IMG/VR virus record: IMGVR_UViG_3300042988_000478 | Location: 1-49,515 of that record | DNA: 49,515 nt | Reading direction: 5' to 3' (one strand) | Source of the DNA: a virus | Shown: piece by piece, positions 1,117 to 49,515 of the stretch | How the letters are laid out: every line of letters begins with the position of its first letter | How positions within the stretch are numbered: position 1 is the first letter of the stretch | The notes under the pieces: model-generated | Databases searched by the model: none | Seen by the model: the letters and a program-made list of their open reading frames with translations, nothing else | Told to the model about the DNA's origin: nothing | Made by a program: the position numbers and the translations under genes

Positions 1117-2085
1117 TTAGCTTGAGTAAGCTGAAAGGTCTCCCTTTGAGCCCCACTTTCGTCTCCAGTCCTTAACATAGTTTGCCCATCGAGCATCTAC
1201 GGTAAAGGTTACTGACTTAGAAAGGATGTCAACATCACTATCAAGTTGTGGAGCCTGACGTACCTCGTGGTACTGCTTATCACGACCAGGGATGACAACG
1301 AACCATGCTGTGTCTGAACCACCATTTAATGCTGCAAGGTGAGTTGAAACTGCTACATCTACCGTACCTCCAGTGAAAACGTTGATAGCGTTGTTCGCTG
1401 TTTCTGGGTCGAGAGCCGATTCAGTCTCTTCTTTTGCCTCATGCATAAGTGCTGGTGGAACAACAAGACGTGGCTTACCCATCAATGCGAGTGGGACACC
1501 ATCATCTGTTTGCTGTTCAATAAGTGCAACGTGCGCCGTCTCAAGTGAGTCATGACCAAACGCAATACTTGTTGAAGATGCGTTAGATTGTGTTGAACCA
1601 CCTGGAACAACTGTTGGGTGAACAGTTGAGTAGGTTGGTACACCGTCACCATAAAAGGTCATAGTGTAACCATTAACCTTAGATGTGGTTGCAAAACCTC
1701 CATTAAACAATTGAAGTCCTGACTTGTCTTGTGCAAAGTTTGCTGCAATTGAAATATCTTTCATCTCGTCAAGCTGTGCATCGAAGTCTCGGTCTTCAAT
1801 ATTGTACTTCGTTACTTGTACACCATTACCATAACTATTGTAGACAACCTTCGTGGTGTACGTCTTGTGTCGTCTTCGGAGTGGAATATCGTCTCCTTCC
1901 TCAAACTGGAACAATTCTCCAAGTCCAGTTTTTCCAGTGAAGTTTCGCTCTGCGCCTACACCAGTTGAAGTTGTGAGTACGTTTCCGATTCCTGGCATGT
2001 ACTCCTCCTGGCCTAGGTCAAATACTTCAGCAATCTGAAGTCCTACACCAGCGATGAGATCTGTCCATGTACCTCTATTTTCCAT
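1117..2085 (-). CDS. Major capsid protein (HK97-fold, Mu gpT-like type)
   Basis: A 322-residue protein. Its central section matches the Mu-type capsid pattern: TVHPTVVPGGSTQSN, then a Ser/Thr-rich stretch, SLETAHVALIEQQTDDGVPL, and a LVVPPALMHEAKE motif. This is the layout seen in many phage major capsid proteins whose N-arm is followed by a loop region and P-domain. The C-terminal half has repeated VDARW and TFTVDARWANYVKDWRRKWG elements. It follows scaffold-like and decoration-like genes in the expected order (portal, scaffold, capsid). No protease domain is visible nearby, so maturation may be protease-free or use the host. The start ATG at 2085 is preceded by an A/T-rich sequence without a Shine-Dalgarno. 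Confidence 0.85.
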   Translation of the reverse strand: MENRGTWTDLIAGVGLQIAEVFDLGQEEYMPGIGNVLTTSTGVGAERNFTGKTGLGELFQFEEGDDIPLRRRHKTYTTKVVYNSYGNGVQVTKYNIEDRDFDAQLDEMKDISIAANFAQDKSGLQLFNGGFATTSKVNGYTMTFYGDGVPTYSTVHPTVVPGGSTQSNASSTSIAFGHDSLETAHVALIEQQTDDGVPLALMGKPRLVVPPALMHEAKEETESALDPETANNAINVFTGGTVDVAVSTHLAALNGGSDTAWFVVIPGRDKQYHEVRQAPQLDSDVDILSKSVTFTVDARWANYVKDWRRKWGSKGDLSAYSS

Positions 2086-11546: not shown

Positions 11547-11553
11547 ACGCCCT

Positions 11554-11990: not shown

Positions 11991-12053
11991 TACAAAAGAT
12001 ATACAATAAAGGCGAATACATAGCAAGGGCTACAAAGTCCACAAGCTAACAAA

Positions 12054-12540: not shown

Positions 12541-13059
12541 CACAGGCACTTAGTAGTAAATACTTTTATAAAGTATACGTTCTATACAAAGGAGTTATCC
12601 ACAGGTGTGCAGTTGACATTAAATCAAAACCTGCTAGTATGGAACATGTGAGGGGCGCAGGTTCCTCACACAGCTAAAGTAGCCTACGGGTGTACACAGC
12701 TCTAGTTATATCTTAGGATATACACAACCCACCACATTCTAACATAGTGTAGCAAGGTGTGAGCATACACAGGTCGTCTGTTATCTCTCTCACTAGGAAG
12801 CGAAGCTAACCTTATCGTAAAATAGGGTACATGTGGTCTGTAGCGTGTGGGCGTTTCCAACACTCACACACTCTACTGGTAAAGCCATTGGGTTCTGGTC
12901 ATTCTTATGCATGTAAGCATTAAAAGCCATGTAAAAATGGTACTAACGTGTTCCCCATTACAACATACACCACAATTACCTTGTATGGTACAGTGCGCCA
13001 GTCCGCAAGGGCAAAGAAGCGACAATATAAACAGCGTGTTATGTGTATTGGGGACAAAT

Positions 13060-15291: not shown

Positions 15292-15292
15292 T

Positions 15293-15661
15293 ATGACGGT
15301 ACTAGAAAGCACTTTTTGTTGTGCAGTTGGAGAGTTAGACCATTTAGGTTTCTCAAAATCACCACAAGAGGCATTAAAAGATATTGGTGGTCATTATTGG
15401 CACAGTGACGAAAGAGCCTTTATATTCTTTACAGAGGTAAGGCGAAAGGGGCGGTCAAAGAAAGTGACAGGTCGTTACGGTGAAAAGCTCAAAGCATACA
15501 TAAAAAAACATAAACTTGGTACGGTTATTGCAACAGATACTAAGAAAAATGTAAATAGTGGCAACCATGTTCGTATGTATGTGTGGACAGTAAACAAGAC
15601 AAACTTTAAAAAGTGGTGTAAACTACATAACTGTTACAATAACTTTAACGATTGGTTCTAA
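15293..15661 (+). CDS. Protein of unknown function in the amidoligase operon
   Basis: A 122-residue basic protein (about 20% Lys/Arg) beginning MTVLESTFCCAVGELDHLGF and containing AFIFFTEVRRKGRSKKVTGRYG. It ends with an aromatic cluster (CYNNFNDWF). It starts 1 nt after the upstream amidoligase stop and ends right before the next start, so it is co-translated. No family recognised. Conserved Cys residues at positions 9-10 and 108-114 are possible functional sites. Confidence 0.6.
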   Translation: MTVLESTFCCAVGELDHLGFSKSPQEALKDIGGHYWHSDERAFIFFTEVRRKGRSKKVTGRYGEKLKAYIKKHKLGTVIATDTKKNVNSGNHVRMYVWTVNKTNFKKWCKLHNCYNNFNDWF

Positions 15662-16084
15662 ATGCAAACATTCCTACCTTATGCAGACTTTCAAAAATCA
15701 GCACAATGCTTAGACAGGGCAAGGCTTGGTAAACAACGTGTAGAATGTCTACAAATACTACAAGCTCTCACTGGTGAGCGAAAAGGTTGGACAAACCACC
15801 CTGCTACTAAGATGTGGAAAGGTAATGAGGTGTGGTTGGTTGACTATGCAATAACTATTTGTCGTGAGTGGTTATTGAGAGGTTACAAAGATACATGCCT
15901 ACAAAAAATACACCTTATTATCTTAAACTGGGACACACTTAAAATAAACAAAACAACACCATGTTGGCTTGGGGATCAAGACTTCCACGACAGGCACAAG
16001 TCTAACCTACTTAGAAAAGCACCAGAACATTATCAGCAATTTAACTGGGACGTACCAGATAATTTACCGTATCGTTGGCTATGA
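15662..16084 (+). CDS. MSMEG_6728-family protein
   Basis: A 140-residue protein. The start MQTFLPYADFQKSAQCLDRARLGKQRVE, then ILQALTGERKGWTNHPATKMWKG and ICREWLLRGYKDTC, are the family signature. The family is widespread in bacteria and phages, and some members are annotated as pyrimidine-dimer DNA glycosylase-like, but the function is not established. The KQR and WxNHPA motifs are intact. It sits inside the amidoligase operon, and its TGA overlaps the next ATG. Confidence 0.8.
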   Translation: MQTFLPYADFQKSAQCLDRARLGKQRVECLQILQALTGERKGWTNHPATKMWKGNEVWLVDYAITICREWLLRGYKDTCLQKIHLIILNWDTLKINKTTPCWLGDQDFHDRHKSNLLRKAPEHYQQFNWDVPDNLPYRWL

Positions 16085-17385
16085 GTGATATAATAAAATC
16101 AAATAGGAAGTTCGGGGTAGAAATAGAAGTGTATGCAGACTGCTCTCGTAGTATTGACAAAATGATTGATGTGTTGCGTACACAAAAGTACCGTGACTAT
16201 TCTGTACATTCGGACGGCAGCATACAAGGGCCTAATGGTCGTGAGTATGTTACTCCACCACTTGTAAAAAAAGATGTACCAACCTTTATATCTTTTGTCA
16301 AGCATATAAAAGAGGCAGGATTTAAAGTTGATCCTAGTTGCGGTCTACATGTTCATTTTGGAGTTGAGGAGTACCTACAAGATACATTGTGGGACGTTAT
16401 TCCAGCGTCAGAGCTTATCAGCAAATATGGCAAAACAAAACTAAATAAGGTTATCTTTATCAAAAAGGAGTTGAACACAAAAGAGAACGTAAATGCACTT
16501 AAACATTTTTTTCCTCCAACAGAGCAGGAAATACATGATTTTGGTGGTAAAATTGTGTACACTCTCCCTAATTGTAAAGAGAATACTGTACTCAAATACA
16601 ATAGAATAAATGTTGCAAAAACGGTATATGTTGGCGTAGTTGATAAAGGGCTATACGATAAGTTCCAACAAGATCACTACAAAATAAGAAAAGATAGGGA
16701 CGTTGCGGATGCTTTAAATAGCGAACCACTTGACTTCCGTATTCCACCGTGGGACATAGAGTATAAAGAGAAAAAACAAAAGTTGTTATCAGAGTTCGAT
16801 AAAAAAGTATTTGAACAAGCGACTTTCACTGGTAACGACTATGTTATTGTAGAATACTACAACACTACAACACACCAAACGCTAAAGAATATCTTTGCTT
16901 TCTACCTTGTGTTTTCAGATGTAATGCAGATGTTCCTACCTAAAACACGACGAAATAACAGATATTGTCAAGACCTGCTTAGCAAGTATACCCTTAAAGA
17001 GATACAAGACATAAAATCATTTGAGGACTTTGACAAAGTGTGGTACAAAGAGCATAAACCAGATAGTATTCGTCGAATGAAAGGTGAAAAGTACCATAGT
17101 AGTAGATACTATGCAGTAAACTTTCACAGTTTGTCAAGGCACAAAACAATAGAGATAAGATCACATTCAGGGACGACAAATATAAAGAAAATACTTTATT
17201 GGGTCGCCCTCCACCAGAGTATCATTGACACCGTAGCAGAGGATAAAAACTTTGACACTTTTATTGAAAGTGTCAATTCTATTACAGATAAGGACACCAA
17301 ATTACAAGTGTTCTATGAGTATATAAAGGCACCTAAAGATATGGTGAAATACCTTAATTCTCGCATTAACATTCTTAAAAACTAA
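16081..17385 (+). CDS. Second amidoligase (Amidoligase_2-like)
   Basis: 434 residues from the ATG at 16081, which overlaps the previous stop. The glutamine-synthetase-like features are FGVEIEVY near residue 11, HSDGSIQGPNGREYVTPPLV near 41-60, CGLHVHFGV near 84, and KTIEIRSHSGTTN near 357. These place it in the amidoligase_2 family, distinct from the first enzyme. The middle (about 120-300) is longer than usual and lacks recognised motifs. Two different amidoligases in one operon suggest two successive ligation steps or two substrates. Confidence 0.82.
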   Translation: MSDIIKSNRKFGVEIEVYADCSRSIDKMIDVLRTQKYRDYSVHSDGSIQGPNGREYVTPPLVKKDVPTFISFVKHIKEAGFKVDPSCGLHVHFGVEEYLQDTLWDVIPASELISKYGKTKLNKVIFIKKELNTKENVNALKHFFPPTEQEIHDFGGKIVYTLPNCKENTVLKYNRINVAKTVYVGVVDKGLYDKFQQDHYKIRKDRDVADALNSEPLDFRIPPWDIEYKEKKQKLLSEFDKKVFEQATFTGNDYVIVEYYNTTTHQTLKNIFAFYLVFSDVMQMFLPKTRRNNRYCQDLLSKYTLKEIQDIKSFEDFDKVWYKEHKPDSIRRMKGEKYHSSRYYAVNFHSLSRHKTIEIRSHSGTTNIKKILYWVALHQSIIDTVAEDKNFDTFIESVNSITDKDTKLQVFYEYIKAPKDMVKYLNSRINILKN

Positions 17386-17390
17386 ACAGT

Positions 17391-18560
17391 ATGTGTGGTA
17401 TTATTTTTGGAAGTAGAAAGGACGGGAAACCTATAGCAAAGGCACTACTAAAGAGGTACCGTAACCAAAGTCACCGTGGTAAACAGGGTTTTGGTTATGT
17501 GACAATAACAAATGGCAAACTTGGTGATGTCAAGCGTTTTGAGAATGAGAACGAAATGGAGGCAAGCATTATCAAAGAGACAGCAGGTGAGATACTTTTT
17601 CACCACCGCTTCCCTACGTCTACACCAAACCTTGCAGAGCTAAACCACCCATTCGTAATAGATGATGAGCGTTTTGCAAACAAGTACATTGTAATTCACA
17701 ATGGGGTTATATCAAACGCCCACAGTCTAAAATACGAACACGAAAAGAAAGGGTATTCTTATAAGTCATTCCTAGAAACTGTAACCACAGTAATAAAGCG
17801 TACCCTTGCAAGAAATGAGGAGGCGAGCGAAACTAAGACGACTGTATTTAACGATAGTGAGGCACTTGCCTTTGAGTTAGCAGAATACTTTGAGGGTATC
17901 AAGACTAAAATTGCTGCGATAGGGAGTATTGCTTTCATTTGTCTAGAGGTTGACAGGGACGATAATGTGTTGAAAATACACTATGGTCGCAATCATGGAA
18001 ACCCTATTGTTGTTGAGCGTGATCTGAAAAGTGGTATATACTTTTTCAAGTCAGAGGGAGGTGGCTACAAAATGGAAGCGGATCAGATTGCAACCATTGA
18101 CTATGCCACAGATGATGTGTCATTACAAGAGGTGGAAGTTGGAGAAACGTATACAAAGCCAAAATCAGCAACAAAGTGGTTAGAGGATAGGGAAAAGGAA
18201 AAAGCACGTATTGTTGGCTTCAATACAGACAAAGTTCGTAGTATTCCGTTGCATGAGATAGATATTGACGACGATAAGTCAAACCAGCCTATCATAGATG
18301 AGCTTGTTGGTGAGATTGAGACTAAAATTGCAGACTTGTCAGCAGAGGAAGAGGACGTTGTTCGGTGCATTAGCGACCTTAACCTACAAATTGCAGCAGA
18401 GAGAAACTATCGTGACAAAGATATGCTCACAATAGAGCGAGAACAATGGTGTCAAGAGCTTGTTCGTATACGAAAGGAAATGTCAAAACTAGAGGATCAG
18501 GTTGAGCAGATTACTGGTAACAGTGAGGCTCTTAAAGAGATACAAGAATATCATAGCTAA
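17391..18560 (+). CDS. Class-II glutamine amidotransferase with coiled-coil tail
   Basis: 389 residues. The N-terminus MCGIIFGSRKDG places the catalytic Cys at residue 2, exposed after Met removal. The usual NTN-type signatures follow in altered form: SHRGKQGFGYV near 27, HHRFPTSTPNLAELNHPF near 66, IVIHNGVISNA near 100, and a SEALAFELAEYFEG acidic site near 153. It would hydrolyse glutamine to release ammonia for an amide ligase. Residues about 305-385 form a charged coiled coil (LSAEEEDVVRC to EDQVEQITG) not needed for catalysis, perhaps for binding the amidoligases. It follows the second amidoligase by 5 nt. Confidence 0.87.
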   Translation: MCGIIFGSRKDGKPIAKALLKRYRNQSHRGKQGFGYVTITNGKLGDVKRFENENEMEASIIKETAGEILFHHRFPTSTPNLAELNHPFVIDDERFANKYIVIHNGVISNAHSLKYEHEKKGYSYKSFLETVTTVIKRTLARNEEASETKTTVFNDSEALAFELAEYFEGIKTKIAAIGSIAFICLEVDRDDNVLKIHYGRNHGNPIVVERDLKSGIYFFKSEGGGYKMEADQIATIDYATDDVSLQEVEVGETYTKPKSATKWLEDREKEKARIVGFNTDKVRSIPLHEIDIDDDKSNQPIIDELVGEIETKIADLSAEEEDVVRCISDLNLQIAAERNYRDKDMLTIEREQWCQELVRIRKEMSKLEDQVEQITGNSEALKEIQEYHS

Positions 18561-18717
18561 ATAAGGCTAAAATAGCATATGCCCTTAAAACGCCCAAAAT
18601 TGAGCGTGGTGAGGAGTTTATATCAAAAGGTATATTGGTACTATTTTGGTGTAAACTATCCACTACAGTCAAATTTGAGCCTTATAGGGGTATATTTAAA
18701 AGCTACCTAACCACACT
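18561..18717 (+). other. Intergenic region with two copies of a recurring motif
   Basis: 157 bp without a gene. CGCCCAAAATTGAGCG at 18591-18606 and GTCAAATTTGAGCC at 18669-18682 belong to a motif also found at 9785, 11305 and 20281. Probable binding sites or transcription-control elements. Confidence 0.45.
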
Positions 18718-18981
18718 ATGATTACTACTACAAATTCAGAACAAGAGAACATTCCAACAACATTGTCAATGTTCGACACACATGCACCGTTGGCAACAGT
18801 ACACGACTTTTATCAAGAGTATGAAAGAAAGGTAAAAATCATTCGTGGTGCAAACTACAAAGCAGACGCAAAGGGTTTTATTGGGTGGCTCTCTACACAA
18901 CACGGCAGAATTATTATCAAGGTTAGAGATACACCTCCTCCTAAACTAACAGCACTATTACCATATAAGGTTGACTTATAG
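18718..18981 (+). CDS. Small protein of unknown function
   Basis: An 87-residue protein beginning MITTTNSEQENIPTTLSMF, continuing with HDFYQEYERKVKIIRGANYKAD and ending with a Pro-rich turn (RDTPPPKLTALLPYKVDL). It stands alone between two regulatory gaps. No family recognised. Starts at the ATG at 18718 without a Shine-Dalgarno. Confidence 0.6.
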   Translation: MITTTNSEQENIPTTLSMFDTHAPLATVHDFYQEYERKVKIIRGANYKADAKGFIGWLSTQHGRIIIKVRDTPPPKLTALLPYKVDL

Positions 18982-19011
18982 GTAGTATTGTTTCTTATTA
19001 CTATTAACCTA

Positions 19012-19040
19012 TTGACTTATGTAATACCATTTGTTATACT
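19012..19040 (+). promoter_or_regulatory. Promoter (TTGACT-17-TGtTATACT) for the ATP-grasp operon
   Basis: TTGACT at 19012-19017, a 17-nt spacer, and TATACT at 19035-19040 with extended TG. Predicted start near 19047, giving a 210-nt leader full of palindromes ahead of the gene at 19258. Confidence 0.7.
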
Positions 19041-19061
19041 ACTTCCAACAAGGACTTTGAC

Positions 19062-19206
19062 AACAGACATATAGCTATATATACCTTATATAAAGACATA
19101 TATAGCTATATATAAGTTTAAATATAGCTATATAGACATATATATAGCTATATACCTTATATAAGGTATATGTCTTATATAAGGTATATTATATATTATA
19201 ACATAT
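19062..19206. repeat. Dense AT palindromes (TATAGCTATA and ACCTTATATAAGGT)
   Basis: The self-complementary core ATAGCTATAT recurs at least four times. CCTTATATAA appears three times, once as a perfect palindrome ACCTTATATAAGGT. Base composition is almost entirely A/T. The tract can form cruciforms or RNA hairpins and may be a replication origin, an iteron array or an attenuating leader. Confidence 0.6.
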
Positions 19207-19257
19207 GTGTCAAGTGTTCCTGTTTTGGCTTTAAATTATTCAAATTTTAATAAATAT

Positions 19258-20019
19258 ATGCCAACAAAATACCGTATTTATCCATACAAAATAGGTTCAG
19301 CTTCAGCTAAGGCACTAGCACAAAGTCTAGGTGGGTGGTGCGTATACTCTAACAAACGCTTCCCTGCACGCAAGGATCACAAGATAATAAATTGGGGCAA
19401 CACAGAAAACCCTACTTGGCGCAAACCAGACACTTTCATACTAAACAAACCAGAGTGTGTTGCTTTAGCTACTAACAAACTTTCTACTTTTGAAAGGTTG
19501 GCAGAGAATGGAGTTCCTGTACCAGATTACACAACAGATTACAATGTTGCACAAGGTTGGGTAAATGACGGTAGTTCAGTTTATGTACGCAAGGTTCTAA
19601 ATGGTCATGGCGGTAACGGTATTGAGGTATGTCGTGGGGGCATTTTACCACGGGCGCACCTTTACACTAAGGCTATTACTGTAAAAGCAGAGTACCGTGT
19701 ACACGTTTTTAACGGAAAGGTTATTGACTATGCAAAAAAACGTAGACGAATTGATGATGTTCCAAATGAGGATCAGTTGTCAGTTCGTAACCATGAGAAC
19801 GGCTGGATATTTACCAGAGAAAACTTGCGACGACTAGAACGTGTTGAGCAAATGGCTATAAATGCAATCAAATCATTGGGGCTGGACTTCGGTAGTTGTG
19901 ATATTGTTCGTGATATTAACAATGATTGCTTCGTTTTAGAGGTAAACACCGCAAGTGGTATTGAGGGTACCACATTAGAAAATTATACTAACGCTATTCG
20001 GGAATTTTATGGACAATGA
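19258..20019 (+). CDS. ATP-grasp ligase
   Basis: 253 residues from the ATG at 19258. ATP-grasp enzymes activate a carboxylate as acyl-phosphate and join it to an amine or thiol. Features are KLSTFERLAENGVPVPDY near 80, VRKVLNGHGGNGIEVCR near 113, KAEYRVHVFNGKVIDYAKKRR near 150, and the metal-binding end GLDFGSCDIVRD then CFVLEVNTASGIEG near 230. A GTG at 19207 gives 17 more residues but lies in the palindromic leader. It is the third ligase of the predicted amide-forming system, with its own promoter. Confidence 0.85.
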   Translation: MPTKYRIYPYKIGSASAKALAQSLGGWCVYSNKRFPARKDHKIINWGNTENPTWRKPDTFILNKPECVALATNKLSTFERLAENGVPVPDYTTDYNVAQGWVNDGSSVYVRKVLNGHGGNGIEVCRGGILPRAHLYTKAITVKAEYRVHVFNGKVIDYAKKRRRIDDVPNEDQLSVRNHENGWIFTRENLRRLERVEQMAINAIKSLGLDFGSCDIVRDINNDCFVLEVNTASGIEGTTLENYTNAIREFYGQ

Positions 20020-20344: not shown

Positions 20345-20515
20345 ATGACACAATTAGGATCACCACCATACAGTGTGGTGAAAAAAGGAAACCGTTTTAT
20401 TGTTTATGACGGTGATGTTTTTGTTGATAGGTTCAAAGATAAAAGGTTGGCGGATAATTTTGTACAATATTTAATAGGGTTTTCAGAGTTTAAATCAAAT
20501 GACAATACAGGATAG
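20345..20515 (+). CDS. Small protein upstream of helicase-primase
   Basis: A 56-residue protein (MTQLGSPPYSVVKKGNRFIVY) with a short beta-rich core, KDKRLADNFVQYLIGF and a KSNDNTG end. Its last 17 bases overlap the start of the TOPRIM-helicase gene, suggesting coupling. Preceded by an intergenic motif copy at 20268-20310. Function unknown. Confidence 0.55.
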   Translation: MTQLGSPPYSVVKKGNRFIVYDGDVFVDRFKDKRLADNFVQYLIGFSEFKSNDNTG

Positions 20516-21950
20516 AATAAAGTCTCTACGAGAGGGGCTTGGGGTTGAGTATATTCGCCCACCCATTGAGAAGCTAGATAAAATGTGTGAGGACTTAAAG
20601 ATGAATGAGGAAGCGTTAGAGTATTTACATATTGAGAGAGGGTTGTCAGATGAGACTATAAAACATTTTCGACTTGGTTACGATCAGGAACGTGACGCAA
20701 TAGCAATACCTATTTTTAAAAAAGGTGAGCTGGTCAACATAAAATACAGAATGTTGCACCCAGATAAAAATAAATACAGTGGCGAGAAAGGTGCAGAGGT
20801 GTGGGTTTTTAATGAGGACGGTGCAAATGTTGGACTGCAAAAACAAGCGGTACTTATTGTTGAGGGAGAGTTTGATTGTATGAGCGCATGGCAAGCTGGT
20901 TTCAAATCAGTTGTCTCCACGTCAGCAGGTAAGGATAGTTATGGTATATGGCTAGAGCTACTTGATCCTATTCCAGTTGTGTTTATCGCATACGATAATG
21001 ACAAGGCAGGTCAAGGGGCAGCTATAAAGTTGGCAGAGCGAATAGGCACAGAGAAGTGTTTTGAGATACAGTACCCAGAGGGTACCAAGGACGCAAACGA
21101 GTTTTTTAAATCACACACACGTGACGACTTTAATGAGCTAAAGAATAACGCAAAACCATTCTACAAGTATCAGTTTAAAGGAATTGGTGACGTTATAAAA
21201 AGTTTACGAGAGGACGAGAGTGAGTATTTGAAAACCGAATATATACCAGATGTTGACTTTCAAAAAGACTGGATAGCGGTTATATCAGGCGTTTCAAATG
21301 TTGGAAAGACTAGCTATTGTATGAACGTAGCAGACGACTTTACAAAGAAGGGGCTTCCTGTTTTGGTTATGCCATTTGAACGTGGGACAGACAGTGTTGG
21401 GCAACGGTTCCTCCAAGTAAAGTTTAATAAAACTCGGGACGACTTTAAAATGATGGACGAAACCGAATGGCAAGAGGTTATCAAAGATTGTGTTGACTTA
21501 CCAGTATACTTTTCTGTTCCAAAGCGTGAGCAGATAGTTGATACAATTATAAAGTCTAAACGAATATTTAACACTGGGGTAGTTATCATTGACCACCTAG
21601 ACTATGTGGTACGACATGTGAGTGGAAACAGAGAGGCAGAGATAGCAAATACAATTCAAAACCTTAAACGAGTTGCGGAGGAACACGGAGTTTTAATTTT
21701 GATTGTCACACACATTAGAAAAATTGATAGTGCTGGTGCAGAAGTTAGACGGAAACCGAATATCGAAGATTTAAAAGGAAGTGCCTCACTTTATCAAGAC
21801 CCAGAGTGTGTTGTCATGTTGCATAAGAATGAGGACACAGAAAGAATTGAGGTTGCCGTTCTAAAAAATAAAGGGAAAATGACTACAAAGGAATTCACTT
21901 GTAATTTTGCAACAGGTAAAATGGAGTTATCAGATTTTGACAGTTTTTAA
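20499..21950 (+). CDS. TOPRIM primase-DnaB-type helicase (gp4/Twinkle-like), zinc-binding domain missing
   Basis: 483 residues. The N-terminal half is a TOPRIM primase: LIVEGEFDCMSAWQAGFKSVVSTSAG near 124 with the catalytic Glu, then VFIAYDNDKAGQGAA with DxD near 163. The C-terminal half is a DnaB/RecA-type helicase: Walker A GVSNVGKTSYCMN near 264, LPVLVMPFERG near 285, Walker B VVIIDHLDYV near 361, and LIVTHIRK plus LKGSASLYQDPECVVML at the end. It would unwind at the fork and make primers. The expected N-terminal CHC2 zinc finger is absent here but encoded separately at 22447. Confidence 0.9.
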   Translation: MTIQDRIKSLREGLGVEYIRPPIEKLDKMCEDLKMNEEALEYLHIERGLSDETIKHFRLGYDQERDAIAIPIFKKGELVNIKYRMLHPDKNKYSGEKGAEVWVFNEDGANVGLQKQAVLIVEGEFDCMSAWQAGFKSVVSTSAGKDSYGIWLELLDPIPVVFIAYDNDKAGQGAAIKLAERIGTEKCFEIQYPEGTKDANEFFKSHTRDDFNELKNNAKPFYKYQFKGIGDVIKSLREDESEYLKTEYIPDVDFQKDWIAVISGVSNVGKTSYCMNVADDFTKKGLPVLVMPFERGTDSVGQRFLQVKFNKTRDDFKMMDETEWQEVIKDCVDLPVYFSVPKREQIVDTIIKSKRIFNTGVVIIDHLDYVVRHVSGNREAEIANTIQNLKRVAEEHGVLILIVTHIRKIDSAGAEVRRKPNIEDLKGSASLYQDPECVVMLHKNEDTERIEVAVLKNKGKMTTKEFTCNFATGKMELSDFDSF

Positions 21951-22300: not shown

Positions 22301-22499
22301 TATCACCCTTGAGCTTCCAAGTGATTGGACTTACATAATAACATTATATGCTTTTCTTGATTGGGTTATAAGAAAAAATGGTGGTGTTGGCATTAATGAA
22401 CCGAACATACTTGACTTATCAAACAACGACTTTGCTCAATACTACAATGAATTCATCAAAATTCACACCAGAGGAGATACAGAAAGCAAGGGAAGTTAG
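22290..22499 (+). CDS. Small protein overlapping the zinc-finger primase gene
   Basis: 69 residues from the ATG at 22290 (MKNSITLELPSDWTYIITLYAF), with a hydrophobic first half then NEPNILDLSNNDFAQYYNEF. It overlaps the previous gene by 11 nt and the CHC2 gene by 53 nt in another frame. Function unknown. Confidence 0.5.
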   Translation: MKNSITLELPSDWTYIITLYAFLDWVIRKNGGVGINEPNILDLSNNDFAQYYNEFIKIHTRGDTESKGS

Positions 22500-22713
22500 T
22501 ATACACTCCTTGTTGGGGCTAAACCATAACCGAAGAGTTGCGATAAGGTGCCCGTTCCACAACGAACGCACCCCATCATGTAACATATACCCAGACAACA
22601 GCTACTATTGCTTCTCCTGCCAAGCAAAAGGTAATAATGCAATTGATTTTGTAGTTGGTATGGGGGCAACATTTAACGAAGCAGTAAAAGAACTTATTGG
22701 AGATAATAAATAG
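22447..22713 (+). CDS. CHC2 zinc-finger primase domain, encoded separately
   Basis: 88 residues from the ATG at 22447 (MNSSKFTPEEIQKAREVSIHSLL). It carries the primase zinc-binding signature: CPFHNERTPSCNIYPDNSYYCFSCQAKGNNAIDFV, with Cys and His spaced as in DnaG and T7 gp4 N-termini. It ends GATFNEAVKELIGDNK, where a full primase would continue into TOPRIM. The partner TOPRIM-helicase lies about 1.95 kb upstream, so the primase is split and reversed in order. It would recognise the priming trinucleotide in trans. Confidence 0.88.
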   Translation: MNSSKFTPEEIQKAREVSIHSLLGLNHNRRVAIRCPFHNERTPSCNIYPDNSYYCFSCQAKGNNAIDFVVGMGATFNEAVKELIGDNK

Positions 22714-26026: not shown

Positions 26027-26668
26027 ATGGAAAATAAATCTATTACAAATGGGTTTATTATATTAACAGAAGTTGCTTCATCTAAAGTTAGGAAACTCAT
26101 AGAGGAAAACCATTACAGCCATAAATGCACACCAAACCACTTTCTATCATTTGATATTAATAATGGCTTGGGGGGGATACAGTTAGGTTTTGGGATAAGA
26201 CCTCACATTAAATCGTCTGTGAGCAAATTAATAACAAAAGATAATTATTGTGAGTTTGATAGAATGTGGGTTGATGACAGATTACCTAAGAATAGCGAAT
26301 CACAAATAATTAGTTTGTTATTGAAGTATCTTAAAATAAATTACCCTAGAATTAAATTTGTTGTAACCTATGCAGACGGTTCTGTTGGTAATCGTGGAAT
26401 AATTTATCAAGCAACAAACGGCATTGAAATAAAACCTATACTTTGTGATTTTTATGAGACCGAAGATGGAGAGAGAATACACCCAGTATCAATGTGGCAT
26501 CGCCACAAAACAAGAGCTTGGTCATTTTTACAGAAAGAATATCCAAATATAAAACATATAAAGGGAACAAAGAAGAAACCTATTTACCAATATAGGTATG
26601 TTTATGTACTTGATAAAAAATTAAGAAAACAGTTTTTAAAAGAATTAGGAATTAGTAGATTAAATTAA
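26027..26668 (+). CDS. mom: Mom-like DNA adenine modification protein (GNAT-fold)
   Basis: 213 residues. Phage Mu Mom adds a carbamoylmethyl group to N6 of adenine, protecting DNA from restriction. Family features here are IEENHYSHKC near 27, FDRMWVDDRLPKNSESQIIS near 82, VVTYADGSVGNRGIIYQATN near 115 with the conserved Tyr-Ala-Asp and YQATN, and a basic C-terminus (YVLDKKLRKQFLKELG). Many phage genes with this pattern are annotated as adenine methylcarbamoylation proteins. Unlike Mu there is no com gene next to it, and expression may be tied to the operon. The Glu/Asp-rich substrate site is intact. Confidence 0.8.
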   Translation: MENKSITNGFIILTEVASSKVRKLIEENHYSHKCTPNHFLSFDINNGLGGIQLGFGIRPHIKSSVSKLITKDNYCEFDRMWVDDRLPKNSESQIISLLLKYLKINYPRIKFVVTYADGSVGNRGIIYQATNGIEIKPILCDFYETEDGERIHPVSMWHRHKTRAWSFLQKEYPNIKHIKGTKKKPIYQYRYVYVLDKKLRKQFLKELGISRLN

Positions 26669-29867: not shown

Positions 29868-29938
29868 TGCACAGTCGTCTAATGGTAGGACACAAGACTT
29901 TGACTCTTGGAATCGAGGTTCGAAACCTTGCTGTGCAG
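29868..29938 (+). tRNA. tRNA-Gln (anticodon TTG)
   Basis: Acceptor TGCACAG/CTGTGCA, D-stem GTC/GAC, anticodon stem CAAGA/TCTTG with loop CTTTGAC, T-stem CGAGG/CCTTG with loop TTCGAAA, discriminator G as usual for tRNA-Gln. The anticodon TTG reads CAA. Confidence 0.93.
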
Positions 29939-29981
29939 CATTGACATAATATAATATATATACCGTAATGTGATAAGTGTA

Positions 29982-31559: not shown

Positions 31560-31978
31560 AAAGAACAAAGTTAAGAAAGAAGTCTAAGTCTCAAACAAAG
31601 AAGTTGCAAGATGAGCTTTGGGAATTATGTAAACAAATCATACGGAAGAAGTATGGTAATGTTTGTTACACTTGTGGAAAAGAAAACCTAAAAGGTAGTA
31701 ACTGGCATACTGGGCACATGATAGCAAAAGCTTCTCTTGGGGCGTTTCTTAAATATGACTTGAGAGTATTGAGACCACAATGTTATCACTGTAATGTCAA
31801 CCTTGGTGGCAATGGTGCAGAGTTCTACCGAAGAATGGTTGAAATAGAAGGTAAGAAGTATGTTGAATCAATCTATAAAGATAAACAAATACTTCTAAAA
31901 GCAGATGAGCTGTGGTACAACAATAAAATAGAAGAATACAAATTAATACTAGAAGAATTAAATGGTAAAACAAAATAA
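31556..31978 (+). CDS. NinG/Rap-like recombination nuclease
   Basis: 140 residues with VCYTCGKENLKGSNWHTGHMIAKA near 33, LRPQCYHCNVNLGGNGAEFYRRM near 75: zinc-binding Cys pairs and the HNH-type histidines of lambda NinG (Rap), a branched-DNA endonuclease that promotes homologous recombination. Start overlaps the RHH gene, and its end overlaps the M23 gene by 17 nt. The basic N-terminus fits DNA binding. Confidence 0.85.
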   Translation: MKRTKLRKKSKSQTKKLQDELWELCKQIIRKKYGNVCYTCGKENLKGSNWHTGHMIAKASLGAFLKYDLRVLRPQCYHCNVNLGGNGAEFYRRMVEIEGKKYVESIYKDKQILLKADELWYNNKIEEYKLILEELNGKTK

Positions 31979-32609
31979 GTATCCATTCCTGTTTAAGCCA
32001 ATATCTCCATACACTATTACTCAAACCTTTGGAGAGAATAGAGCTTGTATAGACAAGGCAACAGGCAAAATAACAATAACATGTGATGGTTTGAATCCAC
32101 CATTAGGGTATAGAAGTATTTATTCAAGAATGTTGGGACATAATGGAATAGATATGAAGGCGATTAGAAACACGCCAATCTATTCTAGCCAAGATGGAGA
32201 GGTTGTTGAGATTGTTGATGAGAAGGTTCGTGGTCTTGGTATTGGAATTATAACAGACAATAAATTCTGGTGTACAGAGACACAATCATTCGAACATTTC
32301 AAAATAAGGTACTGGCACAATCTTGTTAATCTAGTTAGAAAAGGAGATAAGGTTAGTATTGGTCAACATATCGCAAATGTTGACAACACAGGGTATTCAT
32401 CTGGAGACCATCTCCATTTTGAGATTAAGCCAGTTAAGATAACAAAAAGAAACAAGGATGGAACTATTAAGTCATACGAGAACATTCTACAAAACAATGG
32501 ATACTTTGGGGCAATAAACCCTCTACCGTATCTTAGAGAAGAGAATGCTTCACGTTTACAAGGAATACGTTCTGTATGGGAAAGAATATTATGGGCGATA
32601 AGTATTTAA
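31962..32609 (+). CDS. M23 (LytM-type) murein peptidase, probable endolysin
   Basis: 215 residues. GHNGIDMKAIRNTPIYSSQDGEV near 58 and GDHLHFEIKP near 146 supply the zinc-binding His-x-x-x-Asp and HxH of M23 peptidases. An upstream SNxxPPLGYRS stretch and a C-terminal WERILWAISI complete it. No signal peptide. It would cut peptide cross-bridges, complementing the transglycosylase. Located next to recombination and chaperonin genes rather than in a lysis cassette. Confidence 0.85.
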   Translation: MVKQNKYPFLFKPISPYTITQTFGENRACIDKATGKITITCDGLNPPLGYRSIYSRMLGHNGIDMKAIRNTPIYSSQDGEVVEIVDEKVRGLGIGIITDNKFWCTETQSFEHFKIRYWHNLVNLVRKGDKVSIGQHIANVDNTGYSSGDHLHFEIKPVKITKRNKDGTIKSYENILQNNGYFGAINPLPYLREENASRLQGIRSVWERILWAISI

Positions 32610-32612: not shown

Positions 32613-34187
32613 ATGAATAAAAAGGTTTATAAATTTGAAGATATTCAAGATAAAATTATCAAAGCGGTTGATACAATAGCCGATCCTGTAATCCAAACAC
32701 TATCACCAAAAGGTTCGAATGTATTGTATGAAGACGCTAAAGGTAATCAGTATGTAACAAATGACGGAGTTACTATTGCAAAGAATATAAATGTTAAAGA
32801 CCCAGTAGAGAATGCTATTATTGAGGTCATTAAACAACCAGCTCTACAAACTAACTCTATTGCAGGAGATGGAACAACAACAACTATCCTGCTTAGTAAG
32901 GTTCTTATAAAGGAAGGTTTGAAGGCTATTGCAGAAGGAATGAATCGAATGGTTCTAAAGCAGTATCTTGAAGAGATGTCTGATAAGATTAAGGCTAACC
33001 TAAAGAAGCTGTCGGTAAAGATACATGACAAGAAAGACATCTTCAGGATTGCCAAGATTAGTGCAAACAATGATGAGGTTATTGCGAAAGATGTACAGCG
33101 TATCATTGAGGTTGCTGGCGAAGAGGGAATGGTATTTCTTGAGCCTCATCACAAAGTAGACACAGAGCTTATTGAAGACACTGGGTTCACTGTGGATTGT
33201 CCACTCAATGAGGGTTTAACTCTTGGTCGTTCATTCACAGCAAACTATCAAAACATTCCAGTTCTCATCACAGATAAAAGACTCTATTACAAAGAGGAGG
33301 CAGAGACAATTTTGAAGGTTGCTCTTGAGGCTGGATGGAAGAGCGTTGCCATTGTTGCGAGAGACTTTATTGGTAAGACAGAGAACTTCTTTATTGCAAA
33401 CCATAGGCAAGGAGTTATTAATGTATTGCTGGTTAAAGACCCACAAGCGACAGAGAAAGACACAACTTCTCTTAATGACCTAGCTGCATATCTTGGTGGT
33501 GAGGTTGTTACAGAAAAGACTGGCTCACTTGTCAATCGAGTTAAGCCAACACAGTTTGTGTTTGCAAAGAAGATAGTGTCTAATCCAATGAAGACTGTTA
33601 TTGTTACAGATTCACCTGGTAATAAGAAACTGAAAGAGCTTGTAGCAACTCTAAAGGATGAGGTTGAGAAGGTTAAGGAAAACAAGAAGATTAAATCACG
33701 CCTAGCAAACCTAACTAATGGTACAGTTACTGTAAAAGTCGGAGGAAGAACACCACTTGAGGTGCAAGAAAGATTGTTTAGATATGAGGATGCAGTTAAT
33801 GCTGCAAGAGCCGCAGTAAAAGACGGGTATCTTGTTGGTGGAGGACTTGCCCTATACAAATCATTTAAACCAGAAGAACATAAGAACATTCCTGGTATAG
33901 CAAAAAGATTCTGTGAGGCATCTATAAGACAGATTGCAAAGAACTGTGGCAAGCACGAAGAAGCTGTTCTTGAGAATGTTGTAGCCGATAAGAATATTGG
34001 ATACAATGCAAAAACAAACCAGTTTGAAGACCTGCTTACTGGTGGTGTAATAGACCCATACAAAGTTACAGAGATGGCAATTGATAACTCAGTTTCAATC
34101 GCAACACACCTGCTTAGTTCAGGATATTTAATTGTTAATGATATAGAAGATTATGGCAAAAACAAAGAAGACAGAGAAGAATACTAA
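32613..34187 (+). CDS. groEL: GroEL-type chaperonin
   Basis: 524 residues, close to the 548 of E. coli GroEL. Group I motifs are NDGVTIAK near 50, GDGTTTTILLSKVL near 85-98 with the ATP-binding Asp, and GGRTPLEVQERLFRYEDAVNAARAAV near 375 leading to GGGLALYKSF near 408. The last glycine/methionine-rich tail of GroEL is missing; the protein ends KNKEDREEY. Phage chaperonins fold large virion proteins, and the cognate GroES lies 195 nt beyond. In phages of this size a full pair is unusual. Confidence 0.93.
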   Translation: MNKKVYKFEDIQDKIIKAVDTIADPVIQTLSPKGSNVLYEDAKGNQYVTNDGVTIAKNINVKDPVENAIIEVIKQPALQTNSIAGDGTTTTILLSKVLIKEGLKAIAEGMNRMVLKQYLEEMSDKIKANLKKLSVKIHDKKDIFRIAKISANNDEVIAKDVQRIIEVAGEEGMVFLEPHHKVDTELIEDTGFTVDCPLNEGLTLGRSFTANYQNIPVLITDKRLYYKEEAETILKVALEAGWKSVAIVARDFIGKTENFFIANHRQGVINVLLVKDPQATEKDTTSLNDLAAYLGGEVVTEKTGSLVNRVKPTQFVFAKKIVSNPMKTVIVTDSPGNKKLKELVATLKDEVEKVKENKKIKSRLANLTNGTVTVKVGGRTPLEVQERLFRYEDAVNAARAAVKDGYLVGGGLALYKSFKPEEHKNIPGIAKRFCEASIRQIAKNCGKHEEAVLENVVADKNIGYNAKTNQFEDLLTGGVIDPYKVTEMAIDNSVSIATHLLSSGYLIVNDIEDYGKNKEDREEY

Positions 34188-34380
34188 TGTTGCTAATGCG
34201 CAGTCAAATATTGATGAGGAGCTTATTGCTTTCGCACAAGAGTTAAACGAATGGATGAAGGAACGAGGTTTGGCGCTACAACCATTCATCCGACCATTGG
34301 TAACAAAGACAGGATTTAAGTATGGTGAGGCTGCATCAGTTGACCTAGTACGGTTTAACCCAGAAGTAAACGTAGACTAA
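34153..34380 (+). CDS. Small protein between GroEL and GroES
   Basis: A 75-residue protein (MAKTKKTEKNTNVANAQSNI), a helical middle with AFAQELNEWMKERGLALQPF, and an end VRFNPEVNVD. It overlaps the end of groEL by 35 nt in another frame and is followed 1 nt later by groES. Possibly a chaperonin regulator or substrate. Function unknown. Confidence 0.65.
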   Translation: MAKTKKTEKNTNVANAQSNIDEELIAFAQELNEWMKERGLALQPFIRPLVTKTGFKYGEAASVDLVRFNPEVNVD

Positions 34381-34381
34381 C

Positions 34382-34687
34382 ATGAGTAAGTTCGACATTA
34401 CAAAGCACACAATGTTGCACGATAATGTCCTTATCCGTGCAATTAGAGCAGACGAGATTGAAAATAAAAGTGGCCTTATCGACCCTGAACAGTATGAAGA
34501 TAAACCAGAGTGGGGTGAAGTTCTTGCTGTAGGAGATGGTCGCATGCTTGAGAATGGAACTCGTTCACCTATTAGTGTAAAACCAGGAGATATTGTTCTC
34601 TACGGTAAATACTCTCCATATCAAACACGAGTTGATGGTGAAGACTATCTTATTGTAAGAGATGAAGAGATTCTCTCAAAAGCTTAA
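34382..34687 (+). CDS. groES: GroES-type co-chaperonin
   Basis: 101 residues. It contains the co-chaperonin core LHDNVLIRAIRADEI near 12, PEWGEVLAVGDGRMLENG near 42, VKPGDIVLYGKYS near 66 and DGEDYLIVRDEEIL at the end, matching the 97-residue E. coli GroES. The mobile-loop position (about 25-35, NKSGLIDP) has a hydrophobic tripeptide typical of GroEL contact. The order groEL-groES is reversed compared with bacterial groESL. Confidence 0.9.
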   Translation: MSKFDITKHTMLHDNVLIRAIRADEIENKSGLIDPEQYEDKPEWGEVLAVGDGRMLENGTRSPISVKPGDIVLYGKYSPYQTRVDGEDYLIVRDEEILSKA

Positions 34688-35004
34688 TGACTAAGTTATT
34701 TGTATACGGGACATTAAGGCACAAGAATATCCTACAGGCCGTTTTAGGAAGAGAGAAAGTTCCATCATATACAGAGGCGATATTGAAAGACTACTTCAGA
34801 AAGAGTTTAAATATATATGCTTGGCCAGGCTCAAGTGTTGATGGTTATATTATAGATGTATCAGATGATGACCTTAAGAAACTTGATAAATATGAAGCCG
34901 TGGATGAAGAATTGTACAAGCGCATCACTGTGAGACCTGTACTTGAAGATGGTACCGAAGTTGAATGTATTGCATATCAGTTATGTGGTACTGATGAGGA
35001 CTAA
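34687..35004 (+). CDS. Gamma-glutamylcyclotransferase-like (AIG2/GGCT) protein
   Basis: 105 residues. MTKLFVYGTLRHKNILQAVLG at the start is the family signature (YGTLRxxxxxxxxLG); WPGSSVDGYIIDVSDDDLKKLDKYEAVDE near 45-75 follows with the catalytic-type Glu position. These enzymes release 5-oxoproline from gamma-glutamyl amines. The family is found in predicted amidoligase/GAT-II/ATP-grasp gene sets, so it may trim the product of that system here, although it is 15 kb away. Overlaps groES by 1 nt. Confidence 0.8.
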   Translation: MTKLFVYGTLRHKNILQAVLGREKVPSYTEAILKDYFRKSLNIYAWPGSSVDGYIIDVSDDDLKKLDKYEAVDEELYKRITVRPVLEDGTEVECIAYQLCGTDED

Positions 35005-35059: not shown

Positions 35060-35104
35060 AAAGACCCGAGTGGTACATAGATACCATATCGGGTTTTTCT
35101 TTTA
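35060..35104. terminator. Bidirectional terminator between converging blocks
   Basis: ACCCGA/TCGGGT outer and TGGTA/TACCA inner stems form a hairpin with T-runs on one side and A-runs on the other, so it works on both strands. It ends the forward block (GGCT-like gene) and the reverse late block (internal-type gene). Confidence 0.85.
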
Positions 35105-35155: not shown

Positions 35156-38100
35156 CTACCTCTGCTCTGGAAGAACAAACCTTGAGAATGAGTATCCAAC
35201 ACCAGCTGCATCAAGTTTAGCTTCAATCTGTTTGATGAGTTCTTTCTCCCGTCGTTGTTCCTCAACATCAAGGTTGAATGAGTATGGTTTATATCCTGTA
35301 AGGAATCCAATTATCTTGTATTGTTCGTCAACATCAACCGCCTCCATTTGTTTAAGAGAAGAGAATACTCTAGACAAACCAGGTAGATTCATAATAGCAT
35401 ACATTCTCTCTGGTCTAAGGGCAACAGAGTATTTATACTCAGTCCCGTCTGGTCTTTTACCTTTAACCTCTGAGAATCCGATAAAATCTTTAATAACATC
35501 TGGAGCACTATTAAATGCAGATGCGTTATCAATCTGGTCAATACTCTTCTCATGGAAGAATGAGTACCCTGACATAAGCTCTACTGGGTACTTAACCAAA
35601 GGAGATACACCGCCAAGAATACCAGTAGGAGTTGCTTGTGCAAAAGCTGCTTCAAGAGGTGTGCCAGCACTACCAAGAATAGTTACATCTTGCCCACGCT
35701 TTCTAAGAAGGATTTGCTGACCATCCTTAATCCAATCTGGCAACTTCTCTTTATCCTCTTCAGAGAGACTTGATGACGAGATAACATCTCCAATATTCTC
35801 AATAAACTTAACTTCTGCAGCAATACGTCCTGGGTCTTTAAGGAGAGTCTTTACTTGGAGTTCCATGTTCTTTCTTGCAAAGGTATAGAATGGTATTATC
35901 CGCTTCATAACTTTACGTTCAAAGTCTGTAATGTTTGAGTAATCAAATAGGAACTGCTTTGTTCTCTGTGCTGCAAGGCCAACATCTCCAACATTCTTCA
36001 TATTAGCAAGGAAATGAACCATACGTGCGTGATTCTCAACCATCTTACCCATCTCACCTCCAGTAGACATCAATAGGTTATCCATAAGATTCTTGCTACC
36101 GATAACCCTAGTTCTCTTTTCTGTAATAGGATTCTTAAATGAGATTCCTTTTTGAATCTTTCCACGTATTGTGTCAGGAGTATAGAGACCTTCGAACATG
36201 TCCTCCAGTGCTTCATTAGGAAGTTTATTGTAGTCGATTGCCCCAGTAATATTAGGTTGGAACGCAATTACATTCTCTTTCAATGTCGCTCTTAGTTCAG
36301 AGAAGTTCCACTTACGTCCAAATGCATCCTCAAAGACCTCCATTTGGTTTAGTTTCGCAAGTTGACCTTGTGCTTCAATAGCTTTCTTGTATAGGTCTGA
36401 ATTCTTTGGTGCGAACAACCCTTGACCAATAATATTCTCAAGACGTGTCGCTTGGTAGTTTTTGACAGTAAGAGCATTTGCGGCAACATGGTACTCTGGT
36501 CTCAATGCGTTAATACCAAGGTCTAGGTAGTTTAGAAAAACGTTTGAAATAGCATTTCTTCCATGGAAGGCTGGCCAGATAGATGTTACTGATGCCTTGA
36601 AGAAGTTTTGAATTGAATCATATGCCTTAAAGAATTCATCTGTTGGGTCTCCTTTAGCTACACCACCTACAAACTTCTCAGCATACTCTGCAAGCTTTGG
36701 GTGGAACACAATCTCTTCTCCTTTCTTTGATAGAATGTAGTTAGTAAGAGAACCACCAGTCTCTTTAAGTTCTGCAACATTAATAGCCCTCCATCCAGCA
36801 GGAGCTTCTGACGCTGGCTTACCAGCAATCTTTGCAAAGTCAGTAAGGAAGTCTCTTTGTACTGTAAAGTTAATTACATCAAAACTATTTCTTACAGCGC
36901 CAAGGATTGCACGCTCTTCAAACTTAACAGAACTATCTAACTTATTCACCTCATCAACGGTTGCACGAACACGTTTTATTTGTTCTCCTGTTAGACCATC
37001 AAGGAATACATCTTTATCAGTTGTCTTTTCGAGGACTTTTTTCTCGGTAACTTTACCAGCTTCATCCAACACATTAACCTCAAGTGTTTGTTTAGAACCC
37101 TTACCTTTGAACTCACCATAACCAAGGATTCTTTCGCCCGCTTCATCAATGAATGCAGAGAACCCAGCAGCTTTTTGTGAAGCAACTTTACCAGCAGTTT
37201 TTAATTGCTTTGGGAGAAACGGAATCTTAACTTGTTCTTTAACAAGAAGATGTGGAAAGTAGTTTGATTGTTCAGTAATAGGAACACCACGAGCTCTAAG
37301 TTCTTTTAGATTATGTTTAAGTTTTGATTTAACAAATCCTGCGGCATTAAGAACATCAGCAGGAATAACATTTTGGTCTGGTTCGATACCATTAAGAGAA
37401 TCCCATACGGCAGCAAGTCTTTGGTCAGCAGGACGTTTATCTGCTTCAATTGCTGCACGTATCAACTTCTCTTCAGTCTCAGTTATGTTCAATCCTTGGT
37501 ATAGATTCTCTGCTTGTGATAGGAGTTCATTCTTCTTTATTGTGGCAAGGTCTTTATATTTCCTTCTTAGAGTAGATATTTCTGCTGATTTAAAACCTGG
37601 TGCAATATAGTCTGGGTCAAATAGGCTGCTAACCTTGTCTCTTATCGGCATTGTTGCATGGTCAAGCCACGTCATTCCAGGAATAACTTGTTTAACCGCC
37701 TTTAGTCTTTGTCCAGAAAGAATTGACTTACTAAAGAACTTAATACCTCCTTTGTCTAAGAAGGTTTCCATAAGAGCAGGGTTGTTCTCAAGCAGATTAG
37801 AAACAGTGTTTAGAGTGAACTCAGTATCAAGCCTCTTACCAAGAGTTGCTTCAATCATTGCATCAGAAGTCTTTCTTGATATCTCCTTTAATTGTGAAGC
37901 AACTTGCACCTCATCAACCACGCCCCCGGCTTTTCTAATAGATGATGTTATCACATCTCTTTGTTGTTTCAAGAATTGGCTTCTAAGACCATTCTTTTGA
38001 GACTTCATTGCCTCTTTGAAATACTTAAATCCCTTCTCAGAAAGAACTGCATCTTCTCCAACTTCAATACCAAGTTTCTTAGCAACATTAGCTCCAGCTT

Positions 38101-38545
38101 TAATTCTTGGAAGTGCACGGACTCCCATAACTCCAGCAGACGCACCAAAAGTGACGTATGTTAATGGGTCAAGAAGAACATCAACAGCAAACCTTTTTGA
38201 AAACTCTCCTGTCTTTTGTATAAAAGTATCTGTCTCATCTTGTTCTCCAAACAAAACATCTGAAGGAGTAACATCATACTTCATTGCTTCGCCAATTGTG
38301 TAGTCTGAAGAAAGAGCCCCCGCTACAATATTTTGCGGCATTTGAATAACGTCAATGAATCCAGAAAAAGCATTCTTGAATCCATCACCAACAGTAGAGA
38401 ATATGGAACGTCTTGGATGTGTTAATTCCTCAGCAACCTCAGCGATAGCCCCACCCTCCAGCTTTGCTGCCGCCAAGAGTGTTTGTATTCTTTGTTTGCT
38501 TTCCTCCTCTTTCCTATTGGCTTGTACTACTGTACTTAAAGCCAT
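35156..38545 (-). CDS. Large internal-virion or ejection-type protein
   Basis: 1,129 residues, the longest gene and the last on the late strand. The N-terminus includes SIFSTVGDGFKNAFSGFIDV and hydrophobic helices near 125-165 (TYVTFGASAGVMGV). A region near 655-890 resembles large polyvalent phage proteins (FHGRNAISNVFLNYLDLGIN; MKRIIPFYTFARKNMELQV near 895). The protein is amphipathic and Gln/Ala-rich in parts, as expected of proteins that sit inside the head and form an ejection conduit. Assignment by size, position and weak similarity only. Confidence 0.55.
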   Translation of the reverse strand: MALSTVVQANRKEEESKQRIQTLLAAAKLEGGAIAEVAEELTHPRRSIFSTVGDGFKNAFSGFIDVIQMPQNIVAGALSSDYTIGEAMKYDVTPSDVLFGEQDETDTFIQKTGEFSKRFAVDVLLDPLTYVTFGASAGVMGVRALPRIKAGANVAKKLGIEVGEDAVLSEKGFKYFKEAMKSQKNGLRSQFLKQQRDVITSSIRKAGGVVDEVQVASQLKEISRKTSDAMIEATLGKRLDTEFTLNTVSNLLENNPALMETFLDKGGIKFFSKSILSGQRLKAVKQVIPGMTWLDHATMPIRDKVSSLFDPDYIAPGFKSAEISTLRRKYKDLATIKKNELLSQAENLYQGLNITETEEKLIRAAIEADKRPADQRLAAVWDSLNGIEPDQNVIPADVLNAAGFVKSKLKHNLKELRARGVPITEQSNYFPHLLVKEQVKIPFLPKQLKTAGKVASQKAAGFSAFIDEAGERILGYGEFKGKGSKQTLEVNVLDEAGKVTEKKVLEKTTDKDVFLDGLTGEQIKRVRATVDEVNKLDSSVKFEERAILGAVRNSFDVINFTVQRDFLTDFAKIAGKPASEAPAGWRAINVAELKETGGSLTNYILSKKGEEIVFHPKLAEYAEKFVGGVAKGDPTDEFFKAYDSIQNFFKASVTSIWPAFHGRNAISNVFLNYLDLGINALRPEYHVAANALTVKNYQATRLENIIGQGLFAPKNSDLYKKAIEAQGQLAKLNQMEVFEDAFGRKWNFSELRATLKENVIAFQPNITGAIDYNKLPNEALEDMFEGLYTPDTIRGKIQKGISFKNPITEKRTRVIGSKNLMDNLLMSTGGEMGKMVENHARMVHFLANMKNVGDVGLAAQRTKQFLFDYSNITDFERKVMKRIIPFYTFARKNMELQVKTLLKDPGRIAAEVKFIENIGDVISSSSLSEEDKEKLPDWIKDGQQILLRKRGQDVTILGSAGTPLEAAFAQATPTGILGGVSPLVKYPVELMSGYSFFHEKSIDQIDNASAFNSAPDVIKDFIGFSEVKGKRPDGTEYKYSVALRPERMYAIMNLPGLSRVFSSLKQMEAVDVDEQYKIIGFLTGYKPYSFNLDVEEQRREKELIKQIEAKLDAAGVGYSFSRFVLPEQR

Positions 38546-49226: not shown

Positions 49227-49515
49227 TTATTTTCCGCTTAACGTGACCTCTCCGTAGATAGTACCTTTATTTGATGCAACACCTGTTTCTTTAGCAGATA
49301 CCTTCATGTATTTATACTGTATTTCTAGTGGAATTGATATTGTTGCGGCTGCTGCGTTTGTTCCAACAAAAGTAAATTCACGCGCTGCGAGAGTTGATGT
49401 TGCTCCAGATGTTGTATCTGTTGGTAGTCGGTACCAATTAACACCATCAGGGCTTGATTCAATTTTTATTTCTATTGAGTTTGAGCTTTCAGTCGCCCCC
49501 ATTGTATAGAGCACA
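49227..49515 (-). CDS. Virion beta-sandwich structural protein, C-terminal part (same gene as 1-403)
   Basis: Continuation of the gene at 1-403. On the circular unit, codons run from 403 down to 1 and on from 49273 to the stop at 49229-49227. In this window the last 242 bases repeat codons already read at 1-242, with Ala instead of Thr at residue 97. The unique part is 49227-49273 and encodes the end KGTIYGEVTLSGK. Confidence 0.8.
   Translation of the reverse strand, partial: VLYTMGATESSNSIEIKIESSPDGVNWYRLPTDTTSGATSTLAAREFTFVGTNAAAATISIPLEIQYKYMKVSAKETGVASNKGTIYGEVTLSGK
49274..49515. repeat. Terminal direct repeat (copy 2)
   Basis: Second copy of bases 1-242, with C at 49388 in place of T at 115. 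Confidence 0.95.

Follow-up and report, generated by a model that had tools for sequence, protein, structure and literature searches.

The window, as we call the whole 49,515-nt stretch of viral DNA analysed here, encodes a GroEL and a GroES that probably make up a self-contained, ATP-driven phage chaperonin pair. In our reading, the two proteins partner with each other, the major capsid protein is their main client, and a 75-residue protein encoded across the 3' end of groEL serves as an accessory at the GroEL tail. Non-native phage proteins would be bound by a ring of this GroEL, with the GroES encoded beside it acting as the cap. The locus and the other features discussed are compiled in Table 1.

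Table 1. Window features discussed in the text, with positions and supporting matches.
Feature	Position	Strand	Description	Support
Major capsid protein	1117..2085	-		PF25209 2.8e-7
M23 peptidase/endolysin gene	31962..32609	+		PF01551 5e-17
groEL	32613..34187	+	Group I-type chaperonin, 524 aa, without Gly-Gly-Met tail	PF00118, phrog_5725
75-aa ORF	34153..34380	+	+1 frame, overlaps groEL 3' end	
groES	34382..34687	+	Co-chaperonin, 101 aa	PF00166 4.3e-23
GGCT/AIG2-like gene	34687..35004	+	Operon end	PF06094 6.5e-15
Hairpin and T-run	35060..35103	+	Probable terminator between convergent early and late operons	-19.3 kcal/mol, z -3.9
1,129-aa protein	35156..38545	-	Probable virion protein	

Chaperonin cassette and lineage

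The original prediction, that chaperonin and co-chaperonin are both encoded with their key motifs, is borne out, as is the placement of the small ORF between them and of the GGCT-like gene behind; all four genes are intact. groES starts 2 nt past the small ORF and overlaps the GGCT-like gene by one base. Early genes of the window run rightward and late genes leftward, and the chaperonin cassette closes the rightward unit. The genome ends are identical 242-bp direct repeats (1-242 and 49274-49515), indicating a complete genome with a real size of ~49.3 kb. The phage belongs to an undescribed lineage and is plausibly a podovirus, with weak matches of its portal to podoviral portals and a gene layout like that of podovirus RIO-1.

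Further features of the genome include a cluster at 14320-20019 of a COOH-NH2 ligase, an amidoligase, a GlmS-like amidotransferase domain, and a RimK-like ligase, as in RIO-1. The GGCT gene lies inside this amidoligase cluster in RIO-1 and 3' of groES in the window. Since it was not seen beside the chaperonin cassette in relatives, we regard it as a neighbour and not as a conserved part of the cassette. A Mom-like DNA modification protein is encoded at 26027-26668 (PHROG 1.6e-36), and the primase/helicase (20499-21950) has its CHC2 zinc finger on a separate downstream gene (22378-22713), likewise in the relative G001. No DNA polymerase gene was recognised in the window, though a polymerase-type exonuclease subunit is present. 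tRNA-Ile (anticodon TAT) and tRNA-Gln (TTG) lie at 12468-12541 and 29868-29939, respectively.

Window GroEL matches Pfam Cpn60_TCP1 (PF00118) over residues 22-507 (2e-38, 132.7 bits, cut-off 34.3) and the PHROG chaperonin groEL family (phrog_5725) at 1.3e-104, while GroES matches Cpn10 (PF00166) over residues 10-100 with 81.6 bits (cut-off 21.1). The GroEL score is barely above the cut-off of the NCBIfam subfamily NF009487 (356 vs 352 bits) and below that of the GroEL equivalog TIGR02348 (329.3 vs 582.1 bits). Its AlphaFold2 model has a mean pLDDT of 87.5, and the best Foldseek matches of this model are all group I chaperonins (to GroEL, E 6e-42, TM 0.78). The GDGTTTT motif is present. Moreover, the ATP-site residues T30, D52, D87, T89-91, D398, G414/G415, and D495 (E. 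coli numbering, as for all GroEL residues below) are kept, with G32 replaced by Ser. Residues were compared across 80 bacterial and 92 phage GroELs and then across six clade members, namely the window and the five relatives described below; all six keep T30, P33, D52, D87, T89, T91, S151, D155, D398, G414, and G415, and all six carry Ser at position 32. The predicted fold makes the window pair a group I-type chaperonin plus co-chaperonin, though one in which neither the groove nor the loop anchor is canonical.

The relatives were reached via the replication exonuclease gene, followed by two-sequence (paired) alignments; IMG/VR scans with one protein at a time (GroEL, TerL, or the 75-aa ORF) yielded none. 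The five are G001 (51.2 kb), G009 (47.5 kb), G010 (50.9 kb), G012 (51.3 kb), and the fragment L233/G013. G001 has a capsid protein 72% identical to that of the window and shares the terminase, the portal, and other late genes. GroEL and GroES occur together in each of the four contigs of 47 kb or more that were found with the window capsid protein (G001, G009, G010, and G012), and also in L233/G013; the fragments with the capsid but without chaperonin genes are about 24 kb or shorter. Judged from this gene content, and with groES retained next to groEL or close by in each of the six, the two genes form a conserved cassette of the lineage. The six GroELs are 42-61% identical to one another, which together with the intact ATP site indicates genes under selection rather than in decay. 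In a quick tree, where their position among the other GroELs is uncertain, they form one clade with an SH-aLRT support of 100, and the stem leading to it measures 2.96 changes per site. An earlier tree had window GroEL alone on a branch of length 6.2, next to a clade of marine phages; it gave way to the present one when the other clade members were included.

GroEL-GroES interface and the overlapping ORF

The functional roles of the groove, salt-bridge, and loop residues are established from work on E. coli, where R197 and E386 form an inter-subunit salt bridge. We checked this bridge as well as D83-K327, and all four residues are lost in every clade GroEL, as is R268. At positions Y199, Y203, F204, L234, L237, L259, V263, and V264, window GroEL has L, gap, gap, E, L, E, I, and A, and the canonical hydrophobic groove for substrate and GroES, which defines function and not fold, is not found; the AlphaFold2 model is unsure at residues 199-207, a part of this groove. 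Across the clade, position 199 is aliphatic in all six, Y203 is Glu in five and gapped in the window, and V264 is Ala, Gly, or Asn throughout. Position 234 is polar in five members, with G012 keeping V234, compared to none of 80 bacterial GroELs. In contrast, position 259 is variable (E, P, V, L, P, and I) and hydrophobic in some members, so we do not count it among the traits of the clade. Moreover, E461, S463, and V464 are changed in window GroEL while R452 is kept, which hints at altered ring contacts.

The mobile loop of GroES is rebuilt as well. Its tripeptide reads LID in the window instead of IVL, and at the position of E. coli L27 the clade members have D, R, L, K, D, and N. Thus, this anchor is polar in five of six clade members, but in none of 72 bacterial GroES, all of which are aliphatic there. 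It is also hydrophobic in seven of eight head-operon GroES from phages without their own GroEL; a polar anchor is what would be expected if docking on host GroEL were no longer needed. The remodelling of groove and loop is not uniform across the clade, and the loop of L233 keeps VVL. Taken together, the matching changes on both sides suggest that the clade pair no longer fits host GroEL or GroES, and the two proteins are most likely self-partnered. That the pair looks adapted to the phage, as originally proposed, has a stronger basis in the changes to the GroES loop, the salt bridges, and the groove of the apical domain, which the initial reading had missed, than in the gene features on which it drew.

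The small ORF starts inside groEL and overlaps it by 35 nt. Every clade phage has a member of this family where groEL ends: in five genomes the ORF is separate (73-106 aa) and overlaps groEL in the +1 frame, whereas in G012 (L252) it forms an in-frame fusion with the C-terminus, yielding a GroEL of 616 aa. The groEL tail holds a purine-rich stretch and an ATG, which is why internal initiation is favoured over programmed frameshifting into a GroEL fusion, which we also considered. The 75-aa protein matches no Pfam, PHROG, or NCBIfam family, it has no convincing match in PHROGs or the phage collection, and an AlphaFold2 prediction for it from three sequences was uninformative (pLDDT 52). Weak matches to small genes after marine phage GroELs were discarded, as these look like coiled-coil or membrane proteins, and the zinc-ribbon ORFs before the GroES of RaK2 and XaC1 are unrelated.

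For this ORF alone, a competing explanation is an unrelated small gene that overlaps groEL by chance, with the G012 fusion as an assembly error. The fusion is seen in one metagenomic contig, where a single indel or one-base error could create or remove it, and neither the missing family match nor some of the pairwise comparisons within the set, such as window versus G001 (z -0.9), speak for a common family. However, the ORF has the identical position and +1 frame in five genomes, its members share a motif, and, weak as the sequence similarity is, two pairs are highly significant (z = 10.8 for the window and 11.2 for G009, each against the G012 fusion). We grant chance overlap a serious chance, though below an even one, and prefer the 75-aa protein as most likely a tail-associated GroEL accessory.

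Candidate clients

Distant homologues of the window capsid protein (23-30% identity) are found in 22 phage records, ten of which were examined for Cpn10 above the Pfam cut-off. Nine of these ten encode Cpn10, in eight the GroES gene lies within the head operon and upstream of that for the capsid, and GroEL is encoded by none. In contrast, none of 24 phages with the exonuclease in common but without a detected match to the window capsid carries Cpn10; one of these, RIO-1, was outside the capsid search. The association of capsid type and Cpn10 (9/10 versus 0/24) has a Fisher p of 2e-7, with shared ancestry ignored, and points to a head protein as client, most simply the capsid protein. This link between capsid and chaperonin is correlative. 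The arrangement with GroES upstream of the capsid gene is recurrent (L258, L259, L260, L262-L265, and L004), and the phages with a head-operon GroES infect Pelagibacter, Roseobacter, Caulobacter, cyanobacteria, and other hosts. Unlike in these distant relatives, window groES lies in the early operon. PDB sequence searches with the capsid and portal proteins gave nothing useful.

In T4, the co-chaperonin gp31 serves gp23. By analogy, the major capsid protein would be the main client here, with the phage supplying the ring as well as the lid, and we rank it as the likeliest candidate, ahead of the large virion protein and the endolysin. Of the two substrates named in the original prediction, the capsid or the 1,129-residue protein, the comparison thus favours the former and leaves the latter as an outside candidate.

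That the 1,129-aa probable virion protein is the main client instead appears rather unlikely. Its homologues (1,044 to 1,656 aa in relatives) accompany the chaperonins in every clade phage and also in G002, a contig without a detected match to the window capsid whose GroES-GroEL pair is a different one of canonical type. The other contigs searched carry neither homologue nor chaperonin. However, G002 is a 23-kb fragment from which the capsid gene may simply be missing, and the head-operon GroES upstream of the capsid gene in GroES-only phages would be left unexplained. Moreover, a protein of about 125 kDa is too large for enclosure under the GroES lid, as the limit of GroEL lies near 60 kDa.

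The endolysin, kept soluble until lysis, is a less probable main client still. Such a role has been described for phages EL and AR9, whose chaperonins act on endolysins (PMC7185714, PMC9598537), and an endolysin gene is found directly upstream of groEL in three of six clade phages: the M23 gene ends 3 nt before groEL in the window, and an amidase gene is directly 5' of it in G001 and G012. This neighbourhood is not maintained, though, as an HNH/NinG-like gene and no lysin precedes groEL in G009 and L233, and in G010 the gene before it lies on the opposite strand. Further, the endolysin families differ while the chaperonin is conserved, and the chaperonins of EL, OBP, and AR9 function without GroES. 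The capsid protein remains our preferred client.

Relation to known chaperonin systems

Compared to bacterial GroEL and GroES, the window pair is alike in its full-length Cpn60 and Cpn10 folds, its ATP-site residues, and its being co-encoded. It differs in the remodelled groove and GroES loop, the loss of R197-E386 and D83-K327, the position below the TIGR02348 cut-off, the missing GGM tail (the C-terminus reads ...DIEDYGKNKEDREEY), and the reversed gene order. The order groEL before groES is opposite to bacterial operons and to nearly all phage pairs compared; elemo shares it with the window. Both tail and order had been taken as signs of adaptation to a phage substrate, and both features are real, but since they recur in other phages they argue only weakly for it.

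A recently captured host chaperonin lending general stress support to infected cells is highly improbable, for beyond Pfam-level similarity to bacterial GroEL and GroES, the best bacterial identity of window GroEL is 33-35% across many phyla with no near phylum, and the very long stem, the clade-specific interface, and the conservation in the lineage all contradict it. By these sequence comparisons, recent host capture is refuted. The phylogeny with phage and bacterial homologues that had been proposed as a check places the six GroELs in one clade on a long stem, and the signs of a recent host copy that would have spoken against the original prediction, frameshifts or a lost ATP site, are absent. 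Towards the GroELs of the phage collection, identity is likewise about 32% or less.

A full pair in a phage of this size, which had been thought unusual, has precedents. Some phages are known to carry both groEL and groES and many only GroES (PMC7185714). Among deposited phages, we found full pairs in elemo (60 kb), phi40:1/phi38:1 (72.5 kb), cthkR962 (39 kb; its Cpn10 is just below the Pfam cut-off), and immuto (160 kb), and a pattern scan of IMG/VR returned at least 581 GroEL-encoding stretches. Given these precedents, neither phage size nor gene order is surprising. Elemo, phi38:1/phi40:1, and cthkR962 have in common with the window a complete pair in a phage of 39-73 kb, but their GroELs are about 27-29% identical to that of the window and fall outside the clade, and no match to the 75-aa family was found near their groEL. 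A canonical GroES-GroEL pair of another lineage is located at 10952-12830 of G002 (L189) and was apparently acquired independently.

With T4 gp31 and the phage GroES that use host GroEL, the window shares a phage co-chaperonin linked to a capsid protein, a link seen here in the head-operon GroES of phages with a homologous capsid. It differs in that a GroEL is encoded as well and that the loop of its GroES does not resemble those docking on the host ring. With the chaperonins of EL, OBP, and AR9, it shares a diverged, phage-owned GroEL-like protein. The latter have been described as co-chaperonin-free and staying open, and the EL protein is 22% identical to GroEL (PMC7185714, PMC9598537). The conservation of groES throughout the window clade speaks against such a co-chaperonin-free function here.

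As a tentative extension, for which the odds are somewhat against us, the system may be a three-part, host-orthogonal chaperonin devoted to one capsid type. In it, the rebuilt groove of GroEL would be matched by a loop of GroES that has co-evolved, and the small protein would stand in for the GGM tail as a C-terminal domain that can be removed, perhaps located on the floor of the cavity. The association of this capsid type with GroES in nearly all cases, together with one lineage that brings the whole machine of GroEL and GroES, offers a testable answer to why some phages bring their own GroEL. If the interface is truly orthogonal, the clade would be a natural experiment on which GroEL-GroES contacts matter, and the pair might serve as an orthogonal folding tool.
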